NCBI GenBank assembly: GCA_016931365.1
Contig: JAFGEY010000497.1
Coordinates: 1-59,658, forward strand
Length of the DNA stretch: 59,658 nucleotides
Origin: Anaerolineae bacterium
GTDB taxonomy: Bacteria > Chloroflexota > Anaerolineae > JAFGEY01
Direction: 5' to 3'
Position numbers and translations under genes: made by a program. Under the pieces are notes generated by a model. The model searched no databases. It had not been told where the DNA came from and worked only from the letters and a program-made list of their open reading frames with translations. This document shows positions 42,276 to 58,573 of this stretch, piece by piece (positions within the stretch are counted from its first letter, which is position 1; every line of letters begins with the position of its first letter).

Positions 42276-42563
42276 ATGGATTCGGGAATGATCGGCAAGA
42301 TTCTCAAGGCCAAGCAGTATGCAGAAGAACGCGACCGCATCGAGTTTACCGAATTTGCGGCCGTTATCCACGGCGAGAACAACGATCACACAATCCGATA
42401 TACCCAAGGTGAATGGACATGTACGTGTAATTATTTTTCTTCGCATGGCGTGTGCAGCCATACGATGGCTCTGGAACGTGTTTTGGGGGAGATGCTCCGG
42501 CCTGCAGGCCGACAACAGGCTGTTGCCGAGCAGCAAAGTGAAACGGCGATGGCATCGGCTTGA
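42276..42563 (+). CDS. Stand-alone SWIM zinc-finger protein
   Basis: A 95-aa protein. The zinc motif CxCx(n)CxH reads CTCNYFSSHGVCSH, preceded by HTIRYTQGEW. The N-terminal helix is charged (ILKAKQYAEERDR). SWIM domains bind DNA or proteins and are usually part of larger ATPases or transposase-like proteins; an isolated one is a small regulator or adaptor by inference. The ATG at 42276 follows AAAGGAG. Expression probably depends on read-through of the terminator at 42170-42212. Confidence 0.75.
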   Translation: MDSGMIGKILKAKQYAEERDRIEFTEFAAVIHGENNDHTIRYTQGEWTCTCNYFSSHGVCSHTMALERVLGEMLRPAGRQQAVAEQQSETAMASA

Positions 42564-42623: not shown

Positions 42624-43265
42624 TTACTTGCTCGGAATAATAACTTGCCCCCGGTACAATGATTTGAATCGCTCTGCATCGGACAGCGTACCGACAACGC
42701 CGGCACCATAGTGCATCGGTATGGCGACCTGGGGCGAAATGGTCTGGGCGGCCTGAGCGGCTTCTTCGGCAGTCATCACATACGTTCCACTGACCGGTAG
42801 CAGTGCCACGTCGCAGTCGATTTGGGCCATTTCGGGGATGTGATCGGTATCGCCGGCGAAATAAACGCGCTCGTCATCGACGGTAACGATATAGCCATTG
42901 TGTCGCGCTTCTTTGGGGTGAAATGGCACGCCGGGTGCGCGGAACTTGTTGATGTTGTACGCCGGCACGGCCTCGATCTTGATCCCGCTGAGTTCCAGTA
43001 CATCGTCGGGAACCATAATATGCACGTTGCCCTTGAGTTTGGCTGCTGCCGTTTCATTGGCGACGATGCTCGTGCCCGGCCCGCTGATTTTGCGTATGTC
43101 ATCGGGCGAGCAATGATCGCCGTGCTCATGACTGATGAGGACAATGTCAGCCTTGGGCAGACCGTCTGGCAGCTTCCAGGGATCGAAATAGATGATCGGG
43201 GGGCCGTCAAGATGAAAGCTATCATGCCCCAGCCAGTGCAGGTGTTTGAGTAACTGAATGTCCAT
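42624..43265 (-). CDS. UlaG-like MBL-fold metal-dependent hydrolase
   Basis: A 213-aa MBL protein of the UlaG/UPF0173 type. Ligand motif: LISHEHGDHC, then NGYIVTVDDERVYFAGDTDHIPEM and PMHYGAG. Family members include ascorbate-6-phosphate lactonase but most are uncharacterised. The ATG at 43265 follows AAAGGAG; a frame extension of 13 codons starts without a ribosome site. It is convergent with the SWIM gene and divergent from the MBL-STAS-pseudokinase. Confidence 0.88.
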   Translation of the reverse strand: MDIQLLKHLHWLGHDSFHLDGPPIIYFDPWKLPDGLPKADIVLISHEHGDHCSPDDIRKISGPGTSIVANETAAAKLKGNVHIMVPDDVLELSGIKIEAVPAYNINKFRAPGVPFHPKEARHNGYIVTVDDERVYFAGDTDHIPEMAQIDCDVALLPVSGTYVMTAEEAAQAAQTISPQVAIPMHYGAGVVGTLSDAERFKSLYRGQVIIPSK

Positions 43266-43640
43266 CGATCCAACTCCTTTATCTATCTGCTCAAAGAAAC
43301 CCATTTATCACCAGTATAGCCTGTTTTTCCGGTGACGCAAGTGGATGAAATTGACAATCACACTATTGTGTGTTAGCATATATGCGAGTGACCAGGACGT
43401 AATGTAAAAGAAAGAAGCAGGATGTCTAATCTAGTGTCGAAAGATGACTGATCGCTGGTATATCGCCTTGTCCGGAACGTGCTTTTTGTTGCCGTGCCTG
43501 GCGTTGGTTTGACGCCAACCGGAAACGGCTTGAATCCATCGTTTTTTGGCAGAGCACGATCGCGAGCGTCGAGGGGGCCTGGCTCCAACGTGTGATTCTG
43601 ATAACCGTTTCACAATGGGGGAGAGATAGGATCGTACCAT
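43266..43640. other. Long leader region of the MBL-STAS-pseudokinase gene
   Basis: A 375-bp region with the promoter at 43351-43379 and a leader of about 255 nt. The leader can fold: GTGCT (43479-43483) with AGCAC (43553-43557), GCCGT (43491-43495) with ACGGC (43525-43529), and TGGCGT (43499-43504) with ACGCCA (43512-43517), nested in order. This suggests a structured RNA element, not a recognised riboswitch class. A 9-codon ORF in it has no good ribosome site. Confidence 0.45.
43351..43379 (+). promoter_or_regulatory. Promoter of the MBL-STAS-pseudokinase gene
   Basis: TTGACA (43351-43356), 17-nt spacer, TAGCAT (43374-43379). The short palindrome CACAC-TATT-GTGTG lies in the spacer. Confidence 0.55.
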
Positions 43641-45752
43641 ATGAGAATCAAATTTTGGGGTGTAAGGGGATCGATTCCGGCAACCCTGAATTCGAATGAA
43701 GTCAAGCACAAATTGATCACGGCCTTAATGGGGGCACAGAATGTTGATCTGAGCAATCGGCTTGGAGTCCAGAAATATGTTGACGACTTGCCCTTATTGA
43801 TCAAGGGTACCGTCGGCAGCAACACACCATGTGTCTCGATCGAAGCGGGCAGCGACCTGATTATTCTAGACGCCGGTTCCGGCATTCGCACTTGCGGTAT
43901 TGAGTTGATGAAGGGCGAGTTCGGCCGCGGGCAGGGAACCGTGCATATTTTTATCAGCCACACCCACTGGGATCACATTCAGGGATTCCCTTTTTTCACC
44001 CCGGCCTACGTGCGCGGCAATCGAGTTCTCATTTATAGCCCTTTCCCTGACCTTCAGGAGCGTCTGCGCAAGCAGCAAGAGCCCGAGTTCTTTCCTCGTC
44101 GATTGGATCAGATACCTGCCGATGTCCAGTTTGTTCAACTGGAAGAAGGTGTGCCTGTTACTGTAGGTGGTGTTCGCGTCAACAATATCCTGCAGACGCA
44201 CCCTGGACGCTCGTACGGCTACCGATTGGAAGGGGATGGTGCGATTGTTGTCTATGCCACTGACTCGGAATACAAAGATCTGGGCGAAGCACACACCAAG
44301 CGTTACGTCGAGTTTATGTCTGGTGCGGATTTGCTCATTTTCGATGCCCAATACACGCTCAGTGATTCCTTCCAGTTGATTGACTGGGGGCACAGTTCGT
44401 CGGTTATTGGCATCGATATGGCGACGCGCGCCAACGTCAAGCGGATCGCACTCTTTCACTTTGATCATACCTATACTGACCAGCAGATTGGCGATATTCT
44501 CGAAACGACGCTCAAATACATCAAGAGCGATCCTACGCATCCCAATTGCGAGGTGTATCTGGCCACCGAATCGCTCCAGTTTGACATTGGACGAAGCCAG
44601 AAGATTCGGCTGGAATGCCATCAAGTCGGCGATTCCATGGTTCTGTCGATTGAGGGGCGGTTCGATGCACGTGCATCCGAACAGGTGGATCTGCGCTTGA
44701 CCGAGTTGATCTCTGATCAACATGGTGGCGGATTGGTCGTCGATCTGTCCAAGATCAGTCATTTGAGCATTGCCGGGCTCAAGACCTTGCTCAATGCTCA
44801 GCAGATGGGACAGGGAATCCCATTGCTCCTGGCTGCTGCGCCACAAAACGTGCAAGAAGTGCTGTCGAGGGTCGGATTTAGCGAGGCATTTGAGCAGTAC
44901 GATTCGGTTGCCAAGGCGGTTGCTGCTCTGGAAGCGAAACAGTATTTGCAATTAGAAGGTCACGTCCTGCACGATCGTTACCGCATCGAAAGCAGCATTA
45001 ATATGGGCACCAAACACGCCATCTTTAAGGCTTTTGACACCTGGTTTGAACGCCCGGTGACGGTCAAAGTGCTCTCCAAATCTTTGGGTGATGACGTCAA
45101 CCAGCGTTTGCTTGGCGAGGCTAAGGCTGTTGCGCGCCTGAACCATCTTAACATTGCCGCAGTTTACGATTGCGTCGAATACCAGAACCAGCTTTATCTG
45201 ATTCGTGAATTTGTCGATGGGCAGACGCTTGAACACTGGTTGGGCAAAGACTCTGGCGCATGGCCTTTTTCTCCGTCCGACATTTTGCACATTGCGCAGG
45301 ATGTCTTGAGCGGGCTGGATTATGCGCATCGACGCCATGTCTTGCACCAAACGCTGCGTCCTGCATCGATAATTCTGTCCGATCGGGGAGCCAAGATCAT
45401 CAATTTCGGTTTGATGCTTTCCCAAGAATGGTCGTTCGATGATGTCAAGTACGTTTCGCCGGAGCAGCTTGCCGGCGAGAATGCTACCGAGCGCTCTGAT
45501 CTGTTTTCACTGGGCGTGATTTTGTATTTGATGCTGACCGGCCAACTGCCCTTCGATGGAAACAGTGTCGAGGCTGTTTTGCAGGTTCGTTCACATACCG
45601 ATCCTATCCCGTTGCACCAGATCGCTCCCAGCGTGCCATTGCCTTTGGAGCGTATTGTTCTCACGTTGTTGAGCCGCGATCCTTTGCAGCGCTATCCTTC
45701 GGCGGCGATGACTCTTGATGCTCTGGCAGACGTTGAGCCATGGAAGGCTTAG
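43641..45752 (+). CDS. MBL - STAS - pseudokinase fusion protein
   Basis: A 703-aa three-domain protein. Residues 1 to about 315 are an MBL phosphodiesterase-like domain with HTHWDH at 107-112, ATDSEYK near 206 and GHSSS at 250. Residues about 322-432 are a STAS domain (RLECHQVGDSMVLSIEGRFD, VVDLSKISHLSIAGLKTLL) like anti-sigma antagonists. Residues about 444-700 are a Hanks-type kinase fold: YRIESSINMGTKHAIFKAFD, Lys476 in VTVKVLS, then HQTLRPASIIL in place of HRDLxPxN and INFG in place of DFG, so catalytic Asp, Asn and metal Asp are all replaced. It keeps SPEQLAG and DLFSLGVILYLMLTG. No membrane span. The start is ATG at 43641. I infer a signalling adaptor with hydrolase activity. Confidence 0.88.
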   Translation: MRIKFWGVRGSIPATLNSNEVKHKLITALMGAQNVDLSNRLGVQKYVDDLPLLIKGTVGSNTPCVSIEAGSDLIILDAGSGIRTCGIELMKGEFGRGQGTVHIFISHTHWDHIQGFPFFTPAYVRGNRVLIYSPFPDLQERLRKQQEPEFFPRRLDQIPADVQFVQLEEGVPVTVGGVRVNNILQTHPGRSYGYRLEGDGAIVVYATDSEYKDLGEAHTKRYVEFMSGADLLIFDAQYTLSDSFQLIDWGHSSSVIGIDMATRANVKRIALFHFDHTYTDQQIGDILETTLKYIKSDPTHPNCEVYLATESLQFDIGRSQKIRLECHQVGDSMVLSIEGRFDARASEQVDLRLTELISDQHGGGLVVDLSKISHLSIAGLKTLLNAQQMGQGIPLLLAAAPQNVQEVLSRVGFSEAFEQYDSVAKAVAALEAKQYLQLEGHVLHDRYRIESSINMGTKHAIFKAFDTWFERPVTVKVLSKSLGDDVNQRLLGEAKAVARLNHLNIAAVYDCVEYQNQLYLIREFVDGQTLEHWLGKDSGAWPFSPSDILHIAQDVLSGLDYAHRRHVLHQTLRPASIILSDRGAKIINFGLMLSQEWSFDDVKYVSPEQLAGENATERSDLFSLGVILYLMLTGQLPFDGNSVEAVLQVRSHTDPIPLHQIAPSVPLPLERIVLTLLSRDPLQRYPSAAMTLDALADVEPWKA

Positions 45753-45860: not shown

Positions 45861-46649
45861 CTAGCCGGATGTTTCTAAATCAGTCGGGGGTACGCGCTCC
45901 AGTATCGCTTGAGCCACCTTTTCATAGGCTACAGCGCCCTTGTGTACCTGATCGTAATCCATAATTGATTTGCGCGCCACCGAGGCTTCGGCAAAGCGGA
46001 TGCTCTTATAAACCACTTCTTCGAATACCCTGTCTGCAAAAACTGTTTTGATCTCTGACAATACTTCGCGGGCGTGGACCGTGCCGGTTGAATACATCGT
46101 TGCCAGGATGCCGGTCAGTTCCAGGCTCTGATTGAGGCGCTCGTGCACACGCTCGATCATATCCAGGAGCAGCCGGATGCCGCGCATCGCAAAGTACTCG
46201 CACTGCATCGGAATGACCACCTCACTGCTGGCGCAGAGCGCGTTGACGGTCAGCAGGCCGAGGCTGGGCGGACAATCGATCAAAATCAGATCGTACCAGG
46301 GCACCAGCGTTTCAAAGACCCGCTTGAGGATAAACTCGCGCCGGATCTCGGCAATGAGTTCCATTTCGGCTGAAGCCAGTTCGATGTTGGCCGGGATCAT
46401 GTCCAGGTAGGCTTGCACGGGGTAGATGACACGGTTGACCGCAAAGTCGGGATCCATCAGTGCATTATAGATCGTTTCCTGCAGTCCATACCCATCGATG
46501 CCTATACCGGCCGACAGAGCGCCCTGCGGATCCATATCGACCAGCAGCACTTTTTTCTTCATCCGTGCCAGGGCGACGCCCAGATTGATCACCGTTGTCG
46601 TCTTGCCGACACCCCCTTTTTGATTGGCGACCGAGATGACCCTTGCCAT
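45861..46649 (-). CDS. ParA-family ATPase (Soj-like)
   Basis: A 262-aa deviant-Walker ATPase: ISVANQKGGVGKTTTVINLG (A), LLVDMDPQGALSAG (A') and YDLILIDCPPSLGLLTVNAL (B). This matches chromosomal Soj/ParA in length and sequence and normally acts with ParB. No parB lies nearby. The ATG at 46649 begins right at the ATPase domain. It ends at a convergent terminator and starts 73 nt downstream of the second ParA-type gene, in the same direction. Confidence 0.92.
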   Translation of the reverse strand: MARVISVANQKGGVGKTTTVINLGVALARMKKKVLLVDMDPQGALSAGIGIDGYGLQETIYNALMDPDFAVNRVIYPVQAYLDMIPANIELASAEMELIAEIRREFILKRVFETLVPWYDLILIDCPPSLGLLTVNALCASSEVVIPMQCEYFAMRGIRLLLDMIERVHERLNQSLELTGILATMYSTGTVHAREVLSEIKTVFADRVFEEVVYKSIRFAEASVARKSIMDYDQVHKGAVAYEKVAQAILERVPPTDLETSG

Positions 46650-46722: not shown

Positions 46723-47487
46723 TCAAGTTTCATCCGCCGAGATCGGCGGCATATTGAGCACGAGATCGGCTAATTTGGCATAATCTTCGGCCCCGCGGCT
46801 TTTTGGGGCAAACTCAAAGATCGTTTTGCCGGCGCCGGGCGCTTCTGAGAGCAATGTGTCGATGCGAATCGGACGTGTGACGCGGTCGCCAAAGTCTTTG
46901 GTGATCGATTGCAGCACCAAATCGCTCACGCGGCGGCGAGGATCGTAAAATGTGGGAATGATCAAGCGGATCACGGCCCCTTTGCCCAACATACGACTGA
47001 TCGTGCGGAGATAGGTGAAAAACTGACGCGTGCCTGCCAGGGCGAGCATTTCCATCGAAACGGGGATAAACACTTCTTCGGCATAACTGACCACGTTGAC
47101 TGTGAGCAGTGATACCGAAGGCGCACAATCGAGTAGTTGAAAGTCGTAACCGTCGAGTTCAGACAACTGCTCGGCAAAAATTTCCTCACGGCCCATTTCC
47201 AGCACCATACGTTGTTGGGCTTTGAACAGAGCCATACTGCTTGGTAGCACGTCGAGGTTTTTTCGAGCCGGAATGATACATTCTTGCGCGCGCGCTTTGC
47301 GAGTGATCACTTCGGCCAGCGACTTTTTGTAGTCATGCAATCCCAGGGCAATAGACACGTTGGCTTGTGTGTCTGTATCGATGATCAGAACACGCTGTTT
47401 TTGAAGCGTCAGCGCTGCCCCGAGGTTGATCGTGGTGGTTGTTTTGCCAATTCCGCCTTTTAACCCGACAATGGCTATCTTGCGCAA
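46723..47487 (-). CDS. ParA/MinD-type ATPase
   Basis: A 254-aa deviant-Walker ATPase. It has IAIVGLKGGIGKTTTTINLG, VLIIDTDTQANVSIALG and FQLLDCAPSVSLLTVNVVSY. I start it at the TTG at 47487, which has GGGGGA 6 nt upstream; a TTG eight codons earlier is also open, but lacks this spacing. It is less like Soj than its neighbour. The strong promoter at 47545-47573 serves both ParA-type genes. Partner and cargo are unknown; candidates are a nucleoid or other cellular cargo. Confidence 0.88.
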   Translation of the reverse strand: MRKIAIVGLKGGIGKTTTTINLGAALTLQKQRVLIIDTDTQANVSIALGLHDYKKSLAEVITRKARAQECIIPARKNLDVLPSSMALFKAQQRMVLEMGREEIFAEQLSELDGYDFQLLDCAPSVSLLTVNVVSYAEEVFIPVSMEMLALAGTRQFFTYLRTISRMLGKGAVIRLIIPTFYDPRRRVSDLVLQSITKDFGDRVTRPIRIDTLLSEAPGAGKTIFEFAPKSRGAEDYAKLADLVLNMPPISADET

Positions 47488-47544
47488 AATGTTTCCCCCA
47501 AGAGCTATCAAGAAATGGCCAGTATGAGAGATGCAAACTCAATT

Positions 47545-50786: not shown

Positions 50787-53384
50787 ATGTCTGACGACAA
50801 ACCGATACGTGTCTTGATCATCGACGATGAAGAGGTGATCTGCCATACGGTGGCAACATATTTGAACGAGTTCGGATATGCGACGGTTACAGCCCCCGAC
50901 GGCGAGGCGGGTCTGGACAAGGCGCGCGCCGAGTCGTTTGATGTGGTGCTTGTCGATTTGCGTATGCCTCGCATAGATGGTCTGGAAGTCGTGTCCGCAC
51001 TCAAGGAAGAGCAGCCGGACCTGCCCATAGTTGTCGTTTCCGGAACCGGCGTACTCAAACATGCCATCGAGGCATTGCGGCAGGGGGCATGGGATTATCT
51101 GACCAAGCCGTTACATGATATCGATGAGTTGATCGTGGTCATCGAGCGGGTGCTGGAGCGCGCGCGGTTGATCGTTCAACGGCGAAAGGCCGAAGCCCAG
51201 ATGGCGCGCCATCTGCGCGAGGCACTGTTGCTGAATAGGGTGATTGCCGCGTCGTCGTCGGCGCTGAAACCTCAGGCTGTTATGGAGGTACTGTGTAAGG
51301 AACTCGCTCAAGCATTTGATCTGCCCAAGGTGGTTTTTGCCCAATTCGATACAGACCGTAAAAACCTAATCGTCCAGGCTGAACATCGTGCATCAGAGTG
51401 GCCGTCGGTGCTGGGGCAAGTGATTTCGGCGGCAAACAGTACCGTGATCCGGCAGATGCTGGTCCAACAGACGTCGCTTCTGATCGGCGCGGAGCAGGTC
51501 GGTGCGCGGTGCGCCGACGTGCGCGACTGGCTGCACCAGCAAGCCGATATGGCGCTTTTGTTAACGCCGGCGTTGTTGCGCGGCACGATAGTGGGCCTGT
51601 TTGGATTGCTTTCCAATGAGGCAGGTGTGTTTGAACCGTCGATGATCGAACTGGTGCAAGGGGTTGCCACGGCGGGCACGCAGGCTCTGGAGAATGCATG
51701 GCTGTTTGAGCAGGCTGATGCGGCGCGCGTCGAATCACAGGCGCGCGCATCGGCGTTAAGCGAGGCAAATGAGCGGCTCAAAGAGCTGGATCGGCTCAAG
51801 AGCGAGTTTTTGGCGACGGTGAGCCACGAATTGCGTACCCCGCTCAACGCGATCATTGGCTTTTCCGAGTTGCTGCTCAGCGAAAAATTAGGCGCATTGG
51901 CCCCGGAGCAGCGTCGAGGGGTGGACAATGTTCTTGCCAGCGGGGAGCTGTTGCTGGAATTGATCAATAACATTCTCGACTTTTCCAAGATTGAGGCTGG
52001 ACAGCTGGACCTCGACGAGGTTGATTTTGATCCGGGGCAGGTGGTCGAACAGATGGTCGATCTGGTCGCCCCGCGCGCGTTTGCTAAAGGGCTCGAATTC
52101 GTGTACACGGTGTCTCCTGACATCCCCGCGTGTCTGCGCGGCGACCCGCTACGTCTGCGCCAGGTGTTGGTCAACCTGGTTTCCAACGCCGTCAAATTCA
52201 CGGAACGCGGCCAGGTGGTGGTTCGTGTCGATCTGGTTCATGCCCAGGATGCTTCAGTCAGGCTCGGCTGCTCGGTCGCGGACACGGGTATCGGCATCCC
52301 TCCAGAGCGGTTGGCCTCAGTCTTTGCCAGCTTCGTCCAGTCCGACGGCTCGGTGGCCCGGCAGTATGGTGGTAGCGGTTTGGGTCTGACCATTTCGAAA
52401 CGGTTGGTTGAGATGATGGGGGGGGATCTTCGGATCGAAAGCCAAGTGGGCCGGGGCAGCACCTTTTCTTTCGATGTTGTTCTCCAGCATGCTCTGATCC
52501 AGGTCCCCGCCGCGCAGCCTGAAGTCGATGTGCTGGCAAATTTGCACCTTCTGGTGGTTGATGACAATGAGGCGAATCGGCAAATTTTGTGTGAAACGCT
52601 GAATTTTTGGGGCTGTCGATGCGAGATCGCTGCAAGCGGTATTGAAGGACTGCAAAAACTGCGTCAGGCCGTGGCAGGGAGTGCGTCCTTTGATCTGGTG
52701 CTGCTCGACATGCAAATGCCTGGCGTCAGCGGCCTGGATGTGTTGGCCTCGCTCCGGCGGCATCCGATCTTGAGTCAATTGCCGGTGGTGATGGTGGCCT
52801 CGGATGATGCGCTACCGCCAGTGTCCGATAGCGGTGAGCGACCCTGGGCGGCCCATCTGTCCAAGCCGGTCAGACGCAAGCAGCTCTTGTCGACGCTTCT
52901 GGAGGTGCTGCGTCCAGAAACGGCGTCAGGCGGCGTTCAGGGGCGTGCCGATGTCGAGCCTTCGTCATCAGGGAATATTCAGGATCGCAAAATGCCGACA
53001 CTCCACATTTTGCTCGCCGAGGATAATCCAGTCAATCGACACCTGATCAAGATGATGCTCGAACAATTGGGGCATTGCGTGGCGGCGGTGGATAACGGGC
53101 AGACGGCATTGGACTTGCTCGTCGAAGGTGTGTTTGATCTGATCTTTATGGACATTCAGATGCCAGGGATGGACGGTACAACGGCGACCCAGGCGATCCG
53201 GGCCGACGCGCGTTGGGCAGACATTCCCGTCATTGCGATGACCGCACACGCGATGAAGGGAGATCGGGAGTGGTTTATGCAGGCCGGGATGGATGACTAT
53301 GTCAGCAAACCTGTGCGGGTTGAAGACCTGGATGCGGTCATACGTCGTCAGTTTGCGCGGCGACACTTGGGAGAGCGACTATGA
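50787..53384 (+). CDS. Hybrid histidine kinase (REC-GAF-HisKA-HATPase-REC-REC)
   Basis: An 865-aa soluble hybrid kinase. An N-terminal receiver has phospho-acceptor Asp57 (VVLVDLRMP), then a coiled helix and a GAF-like segment (about 150-305). HisKA has ATVSHELRTPLN with His347. HATPase_c follows with LVSNAVKFT, DTGIGIPPE and GGSGLGLTISK. Two C-terminal receivers have acceptor Asp641 (LVLLDMQMP) and Asp789 (LIFMDIQMP). The arrangement, with a receiver first, fits an integrating phosphorelay. The ATG at 50787 is 4 nt after a GGGAGTAGGGA. Its stop overlaps the next gene by 4 nt. Confidence 0.92.
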   Translation: MSDDKPIRVLIIDDEEVICHTVATYLNEFGYATVTAPDGEAGLDKARAESFDVVLVDLRMPRIDGLEVVSALKEEQPDLPIVVVSGTGVLKHAIEALRQGAWDYLTKPLHDIDELIVVIERVLERARLIVQRRKAEAQMARHLREALLLNRVIAASSSALKPQAVMEVLCKELAQAFDLPKVVFAQFDTDRKNLIVQAEHRASEWPSVLGQVISAANSTVIRQMLVQQTSLLIGAEQVGARCADVRDWLHQQADMALLLTPALLRGTIVGLFGLLSNEAGVFEPSMIELVQGVATAGTQALENAWLFEQADAARVESQARASALSEANERLKELDRLKSEFLATVSHELRTPLNAIIGFSELLLSEKLGALAPEQRRGVDNVLASGELLLELINNILDFSKIEAGQLDLDEVDFDPGQVVEQMVDLVAPRAFAKGLEFVYTVSPDIPACLRGDPLRLRQVLVNLVSNAVKFTERGQVVVRVDLVHAQDASVRLGCSVADTGIGIPPERLASVFASFVQSDGSVARQYGGSGLGLTISKRLVEMMGGDLRIESQVGRGSTFSFDVVLQHALIQVPAAQPEVDVLANLHLLVVDDNEANRQILCETLNFWGCRCEIAASGIEGLQKLRQAVAGSASFDLVLLDMQMPGVSGLDVLASLRRHPILSQLPVVMVASDDALPPVSDSGERPWAAHLSKPVRRKQLLSTLLEVLRPETASGGVQGRADVEPSSSGNIQDRKMPTLHILLAEDNPVNRHLIKMMLEQLGHCVAAVDNGQTALDLLVEGVFDLIFMDIQMPGMDGTTATQAIRADARWADIPVIAMTAHAMKGDREWFMQAGMDDYVSKPVRVEDLDAVIRRQFARRHLGERL

Positions 53385-56074
53385 AGCGCCTTGATAGCAG
53401 GTGGACCAAGTTGACGGCATCGGGCCCCGTTGACGGGGATAAGGCGCGTCATGAGTACATGACCCAGATTGTGCTGACGGTGATACTGATTACGTTGCTT
53501 TGCTTTACCTTGTTGATTGCCTGGAGCTGGTTGTTCGATCTTTTCTTATTCAGTGACGTGCTGTTGATGCTCGGCATTGATGCGGTGATCGGAGGGGGGC
53601 TGTGGGCAGCCCATCGAGGCGGATGGAAATGGGCCAGCGCGCTTCCGCCGACGTTGTTCTTCTTGATTGCTGTGGCGCTTACCTACCAATCCGGTTTTTT
53701 CACTTCAGCAGTCTTGTTTTACGTCGTGACACTCATGCTCACTGCCATTTTGCGCGGCGTCAAGTCGCAGTGGTGGATGTTGGCTTGTAGCCTGATCGCC
53801 TACCTGGTTCTTGGTTGGATGCATATCGACTATGACGGGGAGGAGCAAGCTGCGTTTGTGCTTGTGGCCTGCGGCGCATTCTTGGGCGTGGCTCTGTTGC
53901 AATGGCTGTCGATTGGACAACTGCAACGCGCGCTCGATCGGGCGCGCGCTCTCGCGCTCGAGTTGGAGCGTAGTGAAGACAAGTATCGCCGCGTGGTTGA
54001 GAATGCCAATGAGAGCATCCTGGTGATCCAGAATGGCTTGATCCGCTTTTTTAATCCCAATGTGCCCCAGATGCTCGGCATCGACGCTGACAGATTGGCC
54101 GAGACGTCATTTATCGGCTTGGTTCATCTTGAGGATCGTGCGCTGGTAATGGATCGTTACCAGCGCCGTGTGCGGGGTGAGCAGGTACCCGAGATGTACA
54201 CTTTTCGGGTGGTGGATGGGATGGGGCAGGTACGTTGGGCAGAACTCCGCGCCGTGTTGATCGATTGGGAAGGCGCTCCGGCAACGCTCAACTTTGTAAC
54301 CGAGATTACCGCGCGCAAGCAGGCCGAATCCGAGCGCGAACGGCTTTTGGCCGACCTGGAACGCCGTAACGTCCAGTTGCAGACCGCCGCGCAGATCTCC
54401 CAGTCGACGAGCACAGTGCTCGAGCCGGAAGAACTGATCGGCCGTGCTGTGAGCTTGATTCAGGAGCGGTTTGATTTTTATTACGTGGGCTTGTTCCTGG
54501 TGGATGAGGCAAGTGGGTTTGCCATCCTGCGGGCGGGAACCGGCGATGCCGGGCGGCAGATGCTTGCACAAGGTCACAAGCTGGCCGTGGGCGGTGAGTC
54601 GATGATTGGGCAGTGCGTGGCCGATGCACAGGCACGGATCGCCCTCGATATCGGGCACGCGTCGGCGCGGTTTGATAATCCCTTGTTGCCACTGACCCGT
54701 TCCGAGATGGCCTTGCCCCTGGTGAGTCGAGGCCAGTGCATCGGCGCGCTGACCGTACAAAGCGATCAGGAGGCCGCTTTTTCCAGTGAGGATATAGCTG
54801 CGCTGCAAACGATGGCCGATCACCTGGCTGTAGCCATCGAAAATGCGCGCCTCTTTCAGCAGCTTGACGATCAACTAACGCAATCGCATCTGCTCAATAT
54901 GACCCTGTCGCGCACTCAGCGATTGCTGCAAAGCATCACCGATTCGATGCCTTCTGCCCTGGTTGTCCTGGATGCCGTGGGGCAGGTTTTGCTCTGGAAT
55001 CCGGCGGCCGATACGATGACCGGCTGCACGGCGCAACAGATCGGCTCAGAGTCGTTATGGGATCGCTGTTCCAAGTTGGCCCACTATCGTGAACTGTTTG
55101 AACAGGTATTGCGCGAGGGGCAGATCGTACATCGGCACCGCGATCATTTGCTTACTCTGGCGGGCGAGGTGTATTGTGATGTCAGTGTGTTTCCGCTCAC
55201 GTCCGATGTGGTGGAAGGTGCTGTATTGCGTGTCGATGACGTGAGCCAGCGAGTGCAACTGGAAGAAATGATGCTCCAGTCGGCCAAGATGGCCAGCGTC
55301 GGCGGGTTGGCAGCAGGCGTGGCCCACGAAATCAACAACCCGCTGGGCGCGATCATCCAGAGCGCGCAGATGCTGCAACTGGCGTTCGACACGACGCGTG
55401 AGCGTACCCGGGAGCGGTTGGCCCGCTGCGGCGTCGATGCGGAGGCCCTGTCCCATTACCTCGACGAACGCGGCTTGCACGAGTATTTGCAGGGTATCCG
55501 TTCCACCGGGGAACGCGCGGCCAAGATCGTCTCTGACCTGCTGAGTTTTTCACGCTATCGTCCTGCCGAAACTGCGCCGCACGATTTGAATGAACTGATC
55601 GAACAGACACTAGAGTTAGCAGCCACTGATTATAACTTGAGCAAGCAATACGATTTCCGCAACATTGACATTGTGCGCGAGCTTGCGCCAGGGTTGCCCC
55701 AGGCACTGTGCGACGGATCGCAGATACAACAGGTGGTGCTTAACCTGTTGCGCAACGCGGCCCAGGCGATGAGCGGCGCGCATGACGATTTGTGCGCGTC
55801 ACGGGAGGGCTGGTATCCCCGATTGATCTTGCGGACGCTACGTCGCGATAATGATCTGATTCTAGAGGTCGAGGATAACGGTCCGGGGATGCCACAGGCG
55901 GCGCAATCGCGTCTTTTTGAGCCTTTTTTCACCACCAAAGAGGTTGGGGAAGGCACGGGATTGGGATTGTGGCTCTGTTGGTCGATCATCGTCGAGCGGC
56001 ACAAAGGCGTCATCCGCTATGAGGCCGGGGGGGAAGGCGGTGCTCGTTTTGTGATCGCGCTTCCGCTCGTGTGA
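53381..56074 (+). CDS. Membrane histidine kinase with PAS and GAF domains
   Basis: An 897-aa kinase with about five N-terminal spans (residues 30-175), a PAS domain (about 200-310), a GAF domain (about 335-490), a second PAS (about 515-625) and HisKA plus HATPase: LAAGVAHEINNPLGAI with His648, then LLRNAAQAM, DNGPGMPQ and GTGLGLWLCW. It ends without a receiver, so it probably signals to the neighbouring receivers. The ATG at 53381 overlaps the preceding stop by 4 nt. The large gap of 80 nt after it contains the promoter at 56086-56115. Confidence 0.92.
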   Translation: MKRLDSRWTKLTASGPVDGDKARHEYMTQIVLTVILITLLCFTLLIAWSWLFDLFLFSDVLLMLGIDAVIGGGLWAAHRGGWKWASALPPTLFFLIAVALTYQSGFFTSAVLFYVVTLMLTAILRGVKSQWWMLACSLIAYLVLGWMHIDYDGEEQAAFVLVACGAFLGVALLQWLSIGQLQRALDRARALALELERSEDKYRRVVENANESILVIQNGLIRFFNPNVPQMLGIDADRLAETSFIGLVHLEDRALVMDRYQRRVRGEQVPEMYTFRVVDGMGQVRWAELRAVLIDWEGAPATLNFVTEITARKQAESERERLLADLERRNVQLQTAAQISQSTSTVLEPEELIGRAVSLIQERFDFYYVGLFLVDEASGFAILRAGTGDAGRQMLAQGHKLAVGGESMIGQCVADAQARIALDIGHASARFDNPLLPLTRSEMALPLVSRGQCIGALTVQSDQEAAFSSEDIAALQTMADHLAVAIENARLFQQLDDQLTQSHLLNMTLSRTQRLLQSITDSMPSALVVLDAVGQVLLWNPAADTMTGCTAQQIGSESLWDRCSKLAHYRELFEQVLREGQIVHRHRDHLLTLAGEVYCDVSVFPLTSDVVEGAVLRVDDVSQRVQLEEMMLQSAKMASVGGLAAGVAHEINNPLGAIIQSAQMLQLAFDTTRERTRERLARCGVDAEALSHYLDERGLHEYLQGIRSTGERAAKIVSDLLSFSRYRPAETAPHDLNELIEQTLELAATDYNLSKQYDFRNIDIVRELAPGLPQALCDGSQIQQVVLNLLRNAAQAMSGAHDDLCASREGWYPRLILRTLRRDNDLILEVEDNGPGMPQAAQSRLFEPFFTTKEVGEGTGLGLWLCWSIIVERHKGVIRYEAGGEGGARFVIALPLV

Positions 56075-56085
56075 GAACAGACATA

Positions 56086-56115
56086 TGGACAGGAAAACAC
56101 GTTTTGAGGTATACT
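56086..56115 (+). promoter_or_regulatory. Promoter of the receiver and third kinase genes
   Basis: TGGACA (56086-56091), 18-nt spacer, TATACT (56110-56115), about 40 nt before the receiver gene. Confidence 0.6.
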
Positions 56116-56156
56116 AGTGGCAGCGATCATCTGCCGACTGGTGTTGAGGAGTGCAT

Positions 56157-56534
56157 GTGGCCCATAAACGGATTTTGGTTGTAGACGACGAGCGATTGAC
56201 CAGAATCTCTTTGGTTGATTTTCTGGCCGATATGGGATTTGAGACGGTGAGTGCTGCCGATGGCGAATCGGCGATTGCTTTGCAGCGAGACCGTCCGTTT
56301 GATTTTTGCATCATCGATATTCGCATGCCCGGCATCGACGGCGTGGAGACGATCATAACCCTGCACCGTATTGATGCGCGCTCGCGCTTTTTTGTCTGCA
56401 CCGGCTCGCCTCAGTTTGCCCTCTCCCCGGTCTTGAAACAGATTGGCCTGCAGGAGCACGACGTGGTTTTCAAGCCGGTGCTCGATATGCGCGTTTTTGT
56501 CGACCTGATTGCCCAGGTCGAAGGAGTTGGGTAG
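56157..56534 (+). CDS. Single-domain response regulator (receiver)
   Basis: A 125-aa CheY/Spo0F-like protein. It has KRILVVDDERLTRISLVDFL (acidic pair), CIIDIRMPGIDG with acceptor Asp54, FVCTGSP in place of the usual Thr/Ser loop, and VVFKPVLD with the conserved Lys. No output domain, so it is a phosphorelay intermediate. I start at the GTG at 56157, with AGGAG 5 nt upstream; a GTG two codons earlier has no spacing. Its stop overlaps the next gene by 1 nt. Confidence 0.88.
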   Translation: MAHKRILVVDDERLTRISLVDFLADMGFETVSAADGESAIALQRDRPFDFCIIDIRMPGIDGVETIITLHRIDARSRFFVCTGSPQFALSPVLKQIGLQEHDVVFKPVLDMRVFVDLIAQVEGVG

Positions 56535-58573
56535 TGAGCCAGGCGCGAATTCTGGTCGTTGATGACGAGGCACTGATCCGCCGCGCGTTGGCCGACTATC
56601 TGGTCGAGTGTGGCTATGATGTCGAGATGGCTGCGGATGGCTTGGAAGGTTTGACCAGAGTACGAGTAAGCCGCTTCGATGCCGTGTTGATTGACCTGCG
56701 CATGCCCAGGTTGGATGGGTTGGAGGTCATCACCGCATTGCGTGCCGAGCAACCCGATCTGCCGGTGGTCGTCGTTTCGGGCACCGGCGTGTTGAACGAT
56801 GCGATCGAAGCAATGCGGATGGGCGCCTGGGATTATGTGACCAAGCCGGTGCGCGATATGAACGAGATCGTGGTTGTCGTCGAGCGAGTGCTGGAAAAAG
56901 CGCGCCTGCTCGCAGAGCGCGACCGCTATCAGCAGGAACTGGAGCAGCTCAATCGCTCTCTAGAAGCTAAAGTGACTCGCCAGACGCACGACCTGCGCGT
57001 TCAAAACCGCGAATTGGAACGTTTGCTGGCCCAGGTGCAGGCACAGGTGACGCGCGTACAGCAGATCGTCGATACGGTGCCCGAAGGCGTGCTGCTGTTG
57101 GATGCTGACGGCCGGATCGTACTTGCCAATCCTTTGGCACAGCGCGATCTTGTCACCTTGGCTCCTGTGCCGGAAGATGAAAGCGCAGGTGGTCCCTATC
57201 AGTTGTATACCCAAATGCCTTTGCCTGGTCTGGGCGATTGCTCGCTTGCCAGCCTGCTGGAACCGCCGCCGCAAGGATTGTGGCACGAGGTCGCAGGCGA
57301 CGGTCAGCGGTTTGAGGTCATCGCGCGGGCCATCGAACAAGAGGTAGTGTCCGGTGGCTGGGTGATAGTGATTCGAGATGTGACTCAGGAACGCGAGATT
57401 GCGCGTCACGTTCGACAACAGGAGCGGCTGGCTGCGATCGGGCAGCTCGCCGCGGGCATTGCGCACGATTTCAACAACCACCTCACAGCGATCAATGGCT
57501 ACTCGGAACTGCTGTTGCTTGGCCTGCCCACCGAGGATCCGCGCCGCGCCGACCTGGAAGAGATCAAAAAGGCTGCCGGTCGTTCGGCTTCGTTGACCCG
57601 CCAGTTATTGGCTTTTAGCCGCAAGCAGGTCATTCAACCCTGCATTCTCAATTTGAATGACCTCGTTGCCGACATTGAAAGGATGCTGCAACGGCTGATC
57701 GGCGAAAACATCGAGTTGATTGCCCAGCTCGACCCGATGCTCGGTCAAGTGGAAGCCGATCCGGGGCAGATCGATCAGGTGATCATAAACCTGGTCGTGA
57801 ACGCGCGCGATGCGATGCCCGATGGCGGCAAATTGATCGTCGAGACGGCGAATGTTGATCTGGATCATACGTTTACGACCCGGCATATCGATCTGGAACC
57901 AGGGTCATACGTGATGCTCTCCGTAGCTGATACCGGGATTGGGATGGATGAGGAAACCCAGTCCCACCTTTTTGAGCCTTTTTTCACCACCAAAGAACGG
58001 GGGAAAGGCACAGGGCTGGGGCTGGCGACTGTGTATGGCATTATCAAACAGAGCGGCGGCAGCGTCTGGGCGTACAGCGAATTGGGACATGGGAGCGCGT
58101 TCAAGATCTATTTGCCCCGCGTTGATGGCGTGCCGATGTCGATCTCGAGCGAGCAGACGAACATTAATCGGCTTCAGGGCACCGAGACCTTGCTTCTGGT
58201 TGAGGATGACGACGCTGTGTGCGAACTGGCCCAGCGTATTTTACAACGCTATCGCTATCAGGTGATTGTCGCACGGAACGCCCAAGAGGCGCTTGACCGT
58301 GCTTTGGTGTATCGTAATCACATCGATCTGCTGATCACCGATGTGATTATGCCCGAAATGAGCGGGCGCGATTTGGCCGCGCGGCTCTTGAAAGTGCGCC
58401 CCGGTATTCAGGTTTTGTATATGTCAGGTTACACTGACGAAGTGATTGTCCGTCACGGAGTGCTCGAACCCGGCGTTCATTTTATCCAAAAACCATTCAC
58501 CGCGCTTGCTTTTTTGCGCAAAGTCCGTCAGGTGCTCGACGTACCGGCGACTGTTGTCCATCAAGGAGTGTAA
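56534..58573 (+). CDS. Hybrid histidine kinase (REC-PAS-HisKA-HATPase-REC)
   Basis: A 679-aa soluble kinase. The N-terminal receiver (acceptor Asp54, VLIDLRMPRLDGLEV) closely resembles that of the kinase at 50787, including the phrase VVVSGTGVL and WDYxTKP. A coiled coil (about 115-175) and PAS (about 176-285) follow, then LAAGIAHDFNNHLTAI with His311, NARDAMPDGG, DTGIGMDEE and GKGTGLGLATVYG. The C-terminal receiver has ITDVIMPEMSG. The start is GTG at 56534, sharing one base with the preceding stop. The H-box HDFNN form is common in this kinase group. Confidence 0.93.
   Translation: MSQARILVVDDEALIRRALADYLVECGYDVEMAADGLEGLTRVRVSRFDAVLIDLRMPRLDGLEVITALRAEQPDLPVVVVSGTGVLNDAIEAMRMGAWDYVTKPVRDMNEIVVVVERVLEKARLLAERDRYQQELEQLNRSLEAKVTRQTHDLRVQNRELERLLAQVQAQVTRVQQIVDTVPEGVLLLDADGRIVLANPLAQRDLVTLAPVPEDESAGGPYQLYTQMPLPGLGDCSLASLLEPPPQGLWHEVAGDGQRFEVIARAIEQEVVSGGWVIVIRDVTQEREIARHVRQQERLAAIGQLAAGIAHDFNNHLTAINGYSELLLLGLPTEDPRRADLEEIKKAAGRSASLTRQLLAFSRKQVIQPCILNLNDLVADIERMLQRLIGENIELIAQLDPMLGQVEADPGQIDQVIINLVVNARDAMPDGGKLIVETANVDLDHTFTTRHIDLEPGSYVMLSVADTGIGMDEETQSHLFEPFFTTKERGKGTGLGLATVYGIIKQSGGSVWAYSELGHGSAFKIYLPRVDGVPMSISSEQTNINRLQGTETLLLVEDDDAVCELAQRILQRYRYQVIVARNAQEALDRALVYRNHIDLLITDVIMPEMSGRDLAARLLKVRPGIQVLYMSGYTDEVIVRHGVLEPGVHFIQKPFTALAFLRKVRQVLDVPATVVHQGV

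Follow-up and report, generated by a model that had tools for sequence, protein, structure and literature searches.

In receptor guanylyl cyclases, the kinase-homology domain is a pseudokinase that lies beside a cyclic-nucleotide enzyme and acts as its regulator. In bacteria, according to a review, a function has been assigned to few pseudokinases, and all CP1 pseudokinases are linked to a COG3899 (AAA) ATPase (PMC12599244). Among the metallo-beta-lactamase (MBL) fold enzymes, Apyc1 is described as homodimeric like other class II phosphodiesterases (PMC9117128). Here we analyze a gene of an Anaerolineae bacterium on contig JAFGEY010000497.1, whose 59,658 nucleotides constitute the whole stretch of DNA under analysis and are referred to as the window. 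The gene encodes one chain in which an MBL hydrolase, a STAS domain and a pseudokinase are joined, a real and conserved architecture made from known domains. We conclude with moderate confidence that the protein is a regulated MBL-fold cyclic-nucleotide phosphodiesterase equipped with a pseudokinase and having no predicted membrane segment. The MBL domain is probably the enzyme and the kinase fold a regulator. No earlier description of such a fusion was found in the literature, as covered by open-licence PMC text; the retrieved passages of PMC7159879 on STAS domains, protein kinase domains, Chloroflexi and fused proteins do not concern it.

Domain architecture and conserved residues

Three Pfam domains score above their gathering scores in the 703-aa protein: Lactamase_B_2 at residues 99-274 (E 5.3e-18), STAS at 327-426 (E 3e-11; 43.4 bits versus a cut-off of 22.6) and Pkinase at 448-685 (E 1.9e-32). 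AAA ATPase and PASTA domains gave no Pfam match in it. The proposal of the sequence-only reading, that a metallo-hydrolase with an intact HTHWDH motif is joined to a STAS domain and a kinase fold, is thus borne out, with the motif at residues 107-112. All three domains are folded in a full-length AlphaFold model based on 43 homologues (mean predicted local distance difference test score, pLDDT, 81.8). The MBL and STAS domains modelled alone (mdcc6dd7be241) gave a better result, with a pLDDT of 90.8 and a predicted template modelling score (pTM) of 0.76. By a crude test no membrane segment is expected, the top 19-residue Kyte-Doolittle mean being 1.41.

The architecture search that had been suggested found the three domains in one chain in 43 proteins (P0001-P0043, the window protein being P0001) among the best 120 of 1300 hits; they have the full-length architecture, and their identity to the window protein is 53-84%. 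A further member of 717 aa, L085, came from a genome search and raises the clade to 44. The alignment used below has 84 rows, comprising these 44 and 40 longer or other relatives; two rows are exact copies of others.

Judged from sequence, the MBL domain is the only part of the chain with a complete catalytic centre. The eight active-site residues are identical in every aligned row (Table 1); by family position we take His187 and His273 to be metal ligands, Asp208 the bridging metal ligand, and His251 to occupy the position of the RNase Z catalytic His. All eight are also intact in 7 further long forms. In kinase-less MBL-STAS proteins, H187, D208, H251 and H273 are kept in 49/49 and HTHWDH in 45/49, the other four varying only at Thr108 (three) or Trp110 (one), so that the His and Asp residues of the metal motif are kept in all 49. 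An N-terminal helical insert of the domain, at residues ~10-58, is conserved as well. RNase Z and the cAMP/cGMP (cyclic adenosine and guanosine monophosphate) phosphodiesterase YhfI are among the solved MBL folds closest to this domain.

The kinase residues were assigned by direct alignment to Mycobacterium tuberculosis PknB, in which T571 falls on the HRD Asp, S576 on the catalytic-loop Asn, N588 on the DFG Asp and Lys476 on the beta-3 Lys. Realignment, which might have restored a catalytic residue, restores none, and the beta-3 Lys is retained as had been proposed. The earlier claim that the HRD Asp, the Asn and the DFG Asp are lost stands in full for the window protein, and for the clade only in part: the loss of the HRD Asp and the change of DFG to NFG mark the whole clade, whereas the loss of the Asn is local, because Ser takes its place in just 6 of the 44 members. 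The HRD Asp position is occupied by Tyr (20), His (11), Thr (9), Phe (2), Asn (1) and Arg (1). The window protein is a pseudokinase in the general sense, i.e. a kinase fold that has lost at least one of the VAIK Lys, the HRD Asp and the DFG Asp, and its Gly-rich loop is also degenerate. The kinase fold of the clade is probably no longer able to transfer phosphate. Across 43 members, the mean pairwise identity of the domain is 0.546, and H569 and the VYDC segment are invariant.

The closest solved relatives of the STAS domain by sequence are TM1442 and SpoIIAA-type antagonists. At position 377, which by alignment to TM1442 we take to correspond to the phosphorylated Ser of the SpoIIAA/TM1442 type, the 44 clade members have Val (32), Ile (11) or Ala (1), and neither Ser nor Thr; the 40 other rows have Thr in 15 and never Ser. 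This weakens the earlier suggestion that the STAS part is a sink for an anti-sigma kinase. A Ser lies one residue before this position in 26/44, and phosphorylation near it may occur. A structural or ligand-binding role of the domain seems as likely as a role as phosphorylation sink.

Table 1. Positions of the fusion gene, its domains and key residues, neighbouring genes, and cyclase genes at two loci of longer relatives
Feature	Position	Strand	Remarks
Whole MBL-STAS-pseudokinase gene	43641..45752	+	703 aa, ATG start, one uninterrupted open reading frame (ORF)
MBL-fold hydrolase domain, residues 1-318	43641..44594	+	Pfam, model and fold matches
HTHWDH metal motif, residues 107-112	43959..43976	+	H107, H109, D111, H112 in 84/84 rows
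His187	44199..44201	+	84/84 rows
Asp208	44262..44264	+	84/84 rows
His251, WGHSS motif	44391..44393	+	84/84 rows
His273	44457..44459	+	84/84 rows
STAS domain, residues 323-432	44607..44936	+	Pfam; TM1442 and SpoIIAA matches
S-I-A-G (376-379) where a D-S-x-G phosphorylation motif is expected	44766..44777	+	I at position 377
Pseudokinase domain, residues 440-695	44958..45725	+	Pfam; PknB matches
Lys476 (beta-3), kept	45066..45068	+	44/44
Glu493 (alpha-C), kept	45117..45119	+	44/44
HQT (569-571) replacing HRD	45345..45353	+	PknB alignment; HRD Asp in 0/44
Ser576 at the catalytic-loop Asn position	45366..45368	+	Asn 38/44, Ser 6/44
NFG (588-590) replacing DFG	45402..45410	+	Asn588 in 44/44, DFG Asp in 0/44
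Small ORF with CxC...CxH pattern	42276-42563	+	95 aa; no Pfam match at 1e-5
UlaG-like MBL (Lactamase_B_3) gene	42624-43304	-	directly upstream of the fusion gene, opposite strand
Two ParA-type ATPase genes	45861-46649, 46723-47511	-	converge from downstream; ~70 bp apart
Three large sensor/hybrid histidine kinase genes	50787-58573	+	clustered
Class III cyclase-AAA_16-TPR gene	L147:11610-14960	-	stop overlaps MBL-STAS-kinase start (ATGA)
Class III cyclase-AAA_16-TPR gene	L164:3539-6964	-	stop overlaps MBL-STAS-kinase start (ATGA)

Relatives, tree and gene neighbourhoods

Three kinds of relative were found: MBL alone, MBL-STAS proteins of ~440 aa, and Chloroflexota proteins of the order MBL-STAS-kinase-AAA_16-TPR (the long form; 1472-1686 aa in the four scanned). 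The possibility raised beforehand, that the domains are separate proteins in relatives, holds insofar as kinase-less MBL-STAS and MBL-only proteins are common, and fails for the clade itself, whose 43 aligned members are all single chains. One class, entered by way of a record labelled Ardenticatenales, was sampled through 396 genomes; 35 of them gave matches at E<=1e-60, and a single one (G003) carries the three-domain form that is 56% identical to the window protein. A second three-domain protein (L110, 696 aa, 34% identity) has a kinase domain that is altered even further. In a phylum sample, 3/400 genomes matched at E<=1e-100. We name the group Chloroflexota since the records carry various labels (Anaerolineae, Ardenticatenales, Chloroflexi), and in the NCBI taxonomy Ardenticatenales belongs to class Ardenticatenia within Chloroflexota. 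Contigs were also scanned with two MBL peptide patterns, and the matches listed are mostly MBL relatives of other phyla, which give no guide to the frequency of the three-domain form.

In a tree of the MBL-STAS part, made by a quick method with 17 clade members, the window clade lies on one side of a branch with a Shimodaira-Hasegawa-like approximate likelihood-ratio (SH-aLRT) value of 100. On this tree the HRD Asp must have changed at least 4 times and the DFG Asp at least 5 times, a count that cannot tell loss from gain; we assume that the ancestral kinase was active. With L085 and L110 set aside, the 36 long forms on the tree comprise 6 that keep both Asp residues, 12 with the HRD Asp only, 7 with the DFG Asp only and 11 with neither. 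Since the six with both Asp residues have Gln at the alpha-C Glu position, the five canonical kinase residues do not occur together in any of the 84 rows. Among other combinations of the module, P0110 has the same MBL in one chain with HATPase_c_2, the RsbW-like anti-sigma kinase domain. A response-regulator receiver domain precedes the MBL module in P0116 and, by precomputed Pfam domains, in P0117-P0120; in P0116 the MBL thus looks like an output domain too.

Flanks were examined for 31 of 35 long-form loci, and four of these (L119, L123, L147 and L164) have an upstream gene, in the same orientation, for a class III cyclase fused to AAA_16. At L147 and L164 the cyclase stop and MBL start codons overlap as ATGA, a usual sign of translational coupling. 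These two loci belong to different subclades, L164 being P0045 and L147 being nearest to P0054 (76% over MBL-STAS) and its kin. A TPR gene separates the cyclase and MBL genes at L119, and a TPR gene plus ~1.6 kb does so at L123. The cyclase domains keep the Asp in FADxSGFT, the Lys in DKFIGD/DKHIGD, and the Asn and Arg of VNLxxRLE; we take these residues (first metal Asp, Lys, Asn, Arg) to mark adenylyl cyclases. A fifth cyclase gene, ~10 kb upstream, was seen at L146, an extension of the flagged locus L118, and stands outside the count of four.

A cyclase neighbour as a general property of this MBL was rejected: among the matches listed from the contig scan, cyclase matches were found in 3/79 loci (1.2 Mb), and 17 MBL-STAS or MBL-only loci had none. 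At one locus of a Desulfosarcina metagenome-assembled genome, an ORF of 1135 aa that strongly matches class III cyclases (L071:12827-16231, minus strand) converges on the MBL gene L071:10001-10927. HATPase_c_2, SpoIIE, class III cyclase and cNMP-binding domains abound in the six Chloroflexota genomes sampled. Class III cyclase matches number 6 to 28 per genome, and G003, with 6 cyclase and 9 cNMP-binding matches, has fewer than the other five.

The fusion gene stands alone in its stretch of the window, among the neighbours listed in Table 1. The pattern of the small ORF resembles, as we presume, a SWIM zinc finger. Around the fusion gene, promoter-like matches (2 versus 2.2 in shuffles) and terminator-like matches (4 versus 2.7) were not clearly in excess. 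PADLOC matches were dismissed as evidence of defence because they are generic kinase matches. No conserved operon was found for the 703-aa clade at the two loci examined, the window and L114.

Proposed mechanism and rival explanations

The main argument for the hydrolase as the output of the chain is that the MBL site stays constant while the kinase residues change repeatedly on the tree. A phosphodiesterase-like enzyme, as suggested by the sequence-only reading, agrees with the fold neighbours and with the cyclase genes coupled to longer relatives. Its further suggestion, control of the hydrolase by the pseudokinase, is the most economical one given the conserved fusion, the intact hydrolase site and the pseudokinase. 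The N-terminal MBL domain would do the chemistry, hydrolysing a cyclic mononucleotide, most likely of the cAMP type, and the STAS and kinase-fold domains would be regulatory. The chain is presumably a dimer. Having a Lys-Glu pair, and an Asn in the place of the Mg-holding Asp, the pseudokinase would bind a nucleotide or a partner; the signal would pass through the STAS domain as a conformational change, altering how the chain packs or dimerizes and with it, allosterically, the rate of the hydrolase. A more specific version, a bacterial counterpart of the receptor-cyclase kinase-homology domain acting on breakdown, we put forward only tentatively, and consider rather doubtful: the pseudokinase, with its invariant Lys-Glu pair and NFG, would read ATP/ADP and gate a cAMP-degrading MBL, sharing ancestry with Chloroflexota cyclase/phosphodiesterase pairs in which the kinase fold switched state several times and the hydrolase remained unchanged.

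Several observations weigh against the proposal of a regulated cyclic-nucleotide phosphodiesterase. The pTM of the full-length model is 0.50, which means that the contacts and packing between domains are not fixed by the model, and the degenerate Gly-rich loop speaks against tight binding of ATP. By Z, neither RNase Z nor YhfI is the closer fold neighbour. The NCBIfam cyclic-nucleotide phosphodiesterase model NF041851 gives 48.9 bits versus a cut-off of 400, although this model is of the equivalog type and may be narrow; TIGR02651 (RNase_Z) gives a higher score of 59.4 bits, versus a cut-off of 292.95. Three of the four cyclase-linked loci fall in one subclade, L147 being placed by identity. 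At L119, visual inspection shows a terminator-like hairpin between the MBL gene and the genes upstream of it, which makes co-transcription uncertain. No cyclase was found at the loci of the window clade (0/2; the 59.7-kb window and 20 kb around L085), at the MBL-STAS or MBL-only loci (0/17), or at the remaining 27 of the 31 long-form loci, where many contigs are short. A Poisson estimate gives 0.27 upstream cyclases expected versus 4 observed (P ~2e-4), a figure that is post hoc, the pattern having been noticed first, and that takes the cyclase density from six genomes and treats related loci as independent.

It is possible, though we would not favour it, that the MBL domain hydrolyses something else, such as RNA 3' ends, a 2',3'- or 1,2-cyclic phosphate, a diphosphate, a sulfate or a lactone, with the STAS and pseudokinase domains still in control. 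The absence of the RNase Z arm, an insertion after the third His and before the bridging Asp (21 profile positions versus 64 residues in E. coli ZipD), and the cyclase coupling in some relatives speak against this. Partner switching, with an RsbW-like anti-sigma kinase as binding partner of the STAS domain and the other two domains only tuning the binding, appears unlikely. The fold of the STAS domain is near TM1442 and SpoIIAA, P0110 is consistent with such a connection, and a search along the lines proposed, for a SpoIIAB-like kinase and a SpoIIE-like phosphatase, did find HATPase_c_2 (RsbW-type) and SpoIIE domains in the genome of a close relative (G003); however, they are present in 6/6 genomes tested and thus give no specific link, many weaker HATPase_c_2 matches probably being other histidine-kinase ATPases. 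Moreover, Val, Ile or Ala at the phospho-Ser position in 44/44 makes a normal phosphorylation cycle unlikely, the TIGR00377 cut-off is missed (35.9 versus 53.45 bits), and the neighbouring genes encode a UlaG-like MBL and two ParA-type ATPases. The STAS domain may still be a constitutive, non-phosphorylatable binder.

The kinase fold might also not be dead, and retain another ATP chemistry (AMPylation-like) or weak phosphotransfer. The Lys-Glu pair in 44/44 and the Asn in 38/44 would fit this idea, with SelO and SidJ as precedents described in PMC12599244. Both Asp residues are gone in 44/44, the HRD Asp substitutes are varied (Tyr, His, Thr, Phe, Asn and Arg) rather than a single choice, and the Gly loop is degenerate; we thus consider it very improbable. 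A purely passive kinase domain, a relic or scaffold having no regulatory role, is scarcely to be expected. The repeated and various changes of the catalytic residues in relatives might indicate one; against it stand the identity of the domain across 43 members, the invariant H569 and VYDC segment, and K476, E493 and N588, which are invariant in all 44.

Comparison with known systems

The kinase fold is here covalently joined to an enzyme of measurable activity, and the family includes much less altered kinases, which makes it a good system for studying the effect of a pseudokinase on a partner enzyme. It is equally suited to asking why kinase chemistry is given up while the domain stays. If the substrate is cAMP, the protein would be one more regulated cAMP-degrading enzyme in the Chloroflexota of this group.

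The window protein shares the MBL fold with the HxHxDH metal site with YhfI and the class II phosphodiesterases (yeast PDE1, Apyc1), at 16-21% identity in alignments, and differs from them by the helical insert, the STAS domain and the pseudokinase. From RNase Z (TIGR02651) it is distinguished by the missing arm and by a score far below the family cut-off. With the SpoIIAA, RsbV and TM1442 antagonists it has the STAS fold in common and not their D-S-x-G phospho-Ser. Of the solved kinases, PknB-type Ser/Thr kinases match best in both sequence and fold, and the HRD Asp, catalytic Asn and DFG Asp of the active enzymes are replaced here by T571, S576 and N588. The likeness to receptor guanylyl cyclases is one of analogy: those are eukaryotic and control synthesis, whereas the window protein is bacterial and would control breakdown.

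The comparison with CP1 pseudokinases rests on PMC12599244, whose main text, by a term search, makes no mention of STAS, lactamase, MBL or Chloroflex. The window protein, unlike CP1 pseudokinases with their linkage to COG3899, has no ATPase domain, an AAA domain being found only in the longer relatives. Like them, it has no transmembrane segment by the crude Kyte-Doolittle test (maximum 1.41) and has a bacterial Ser/Thr kinase fold with variably lost motifs, and the AAA_16 domain of its longer relatives is reminiscent of the COG3899 ATPase of CP1.
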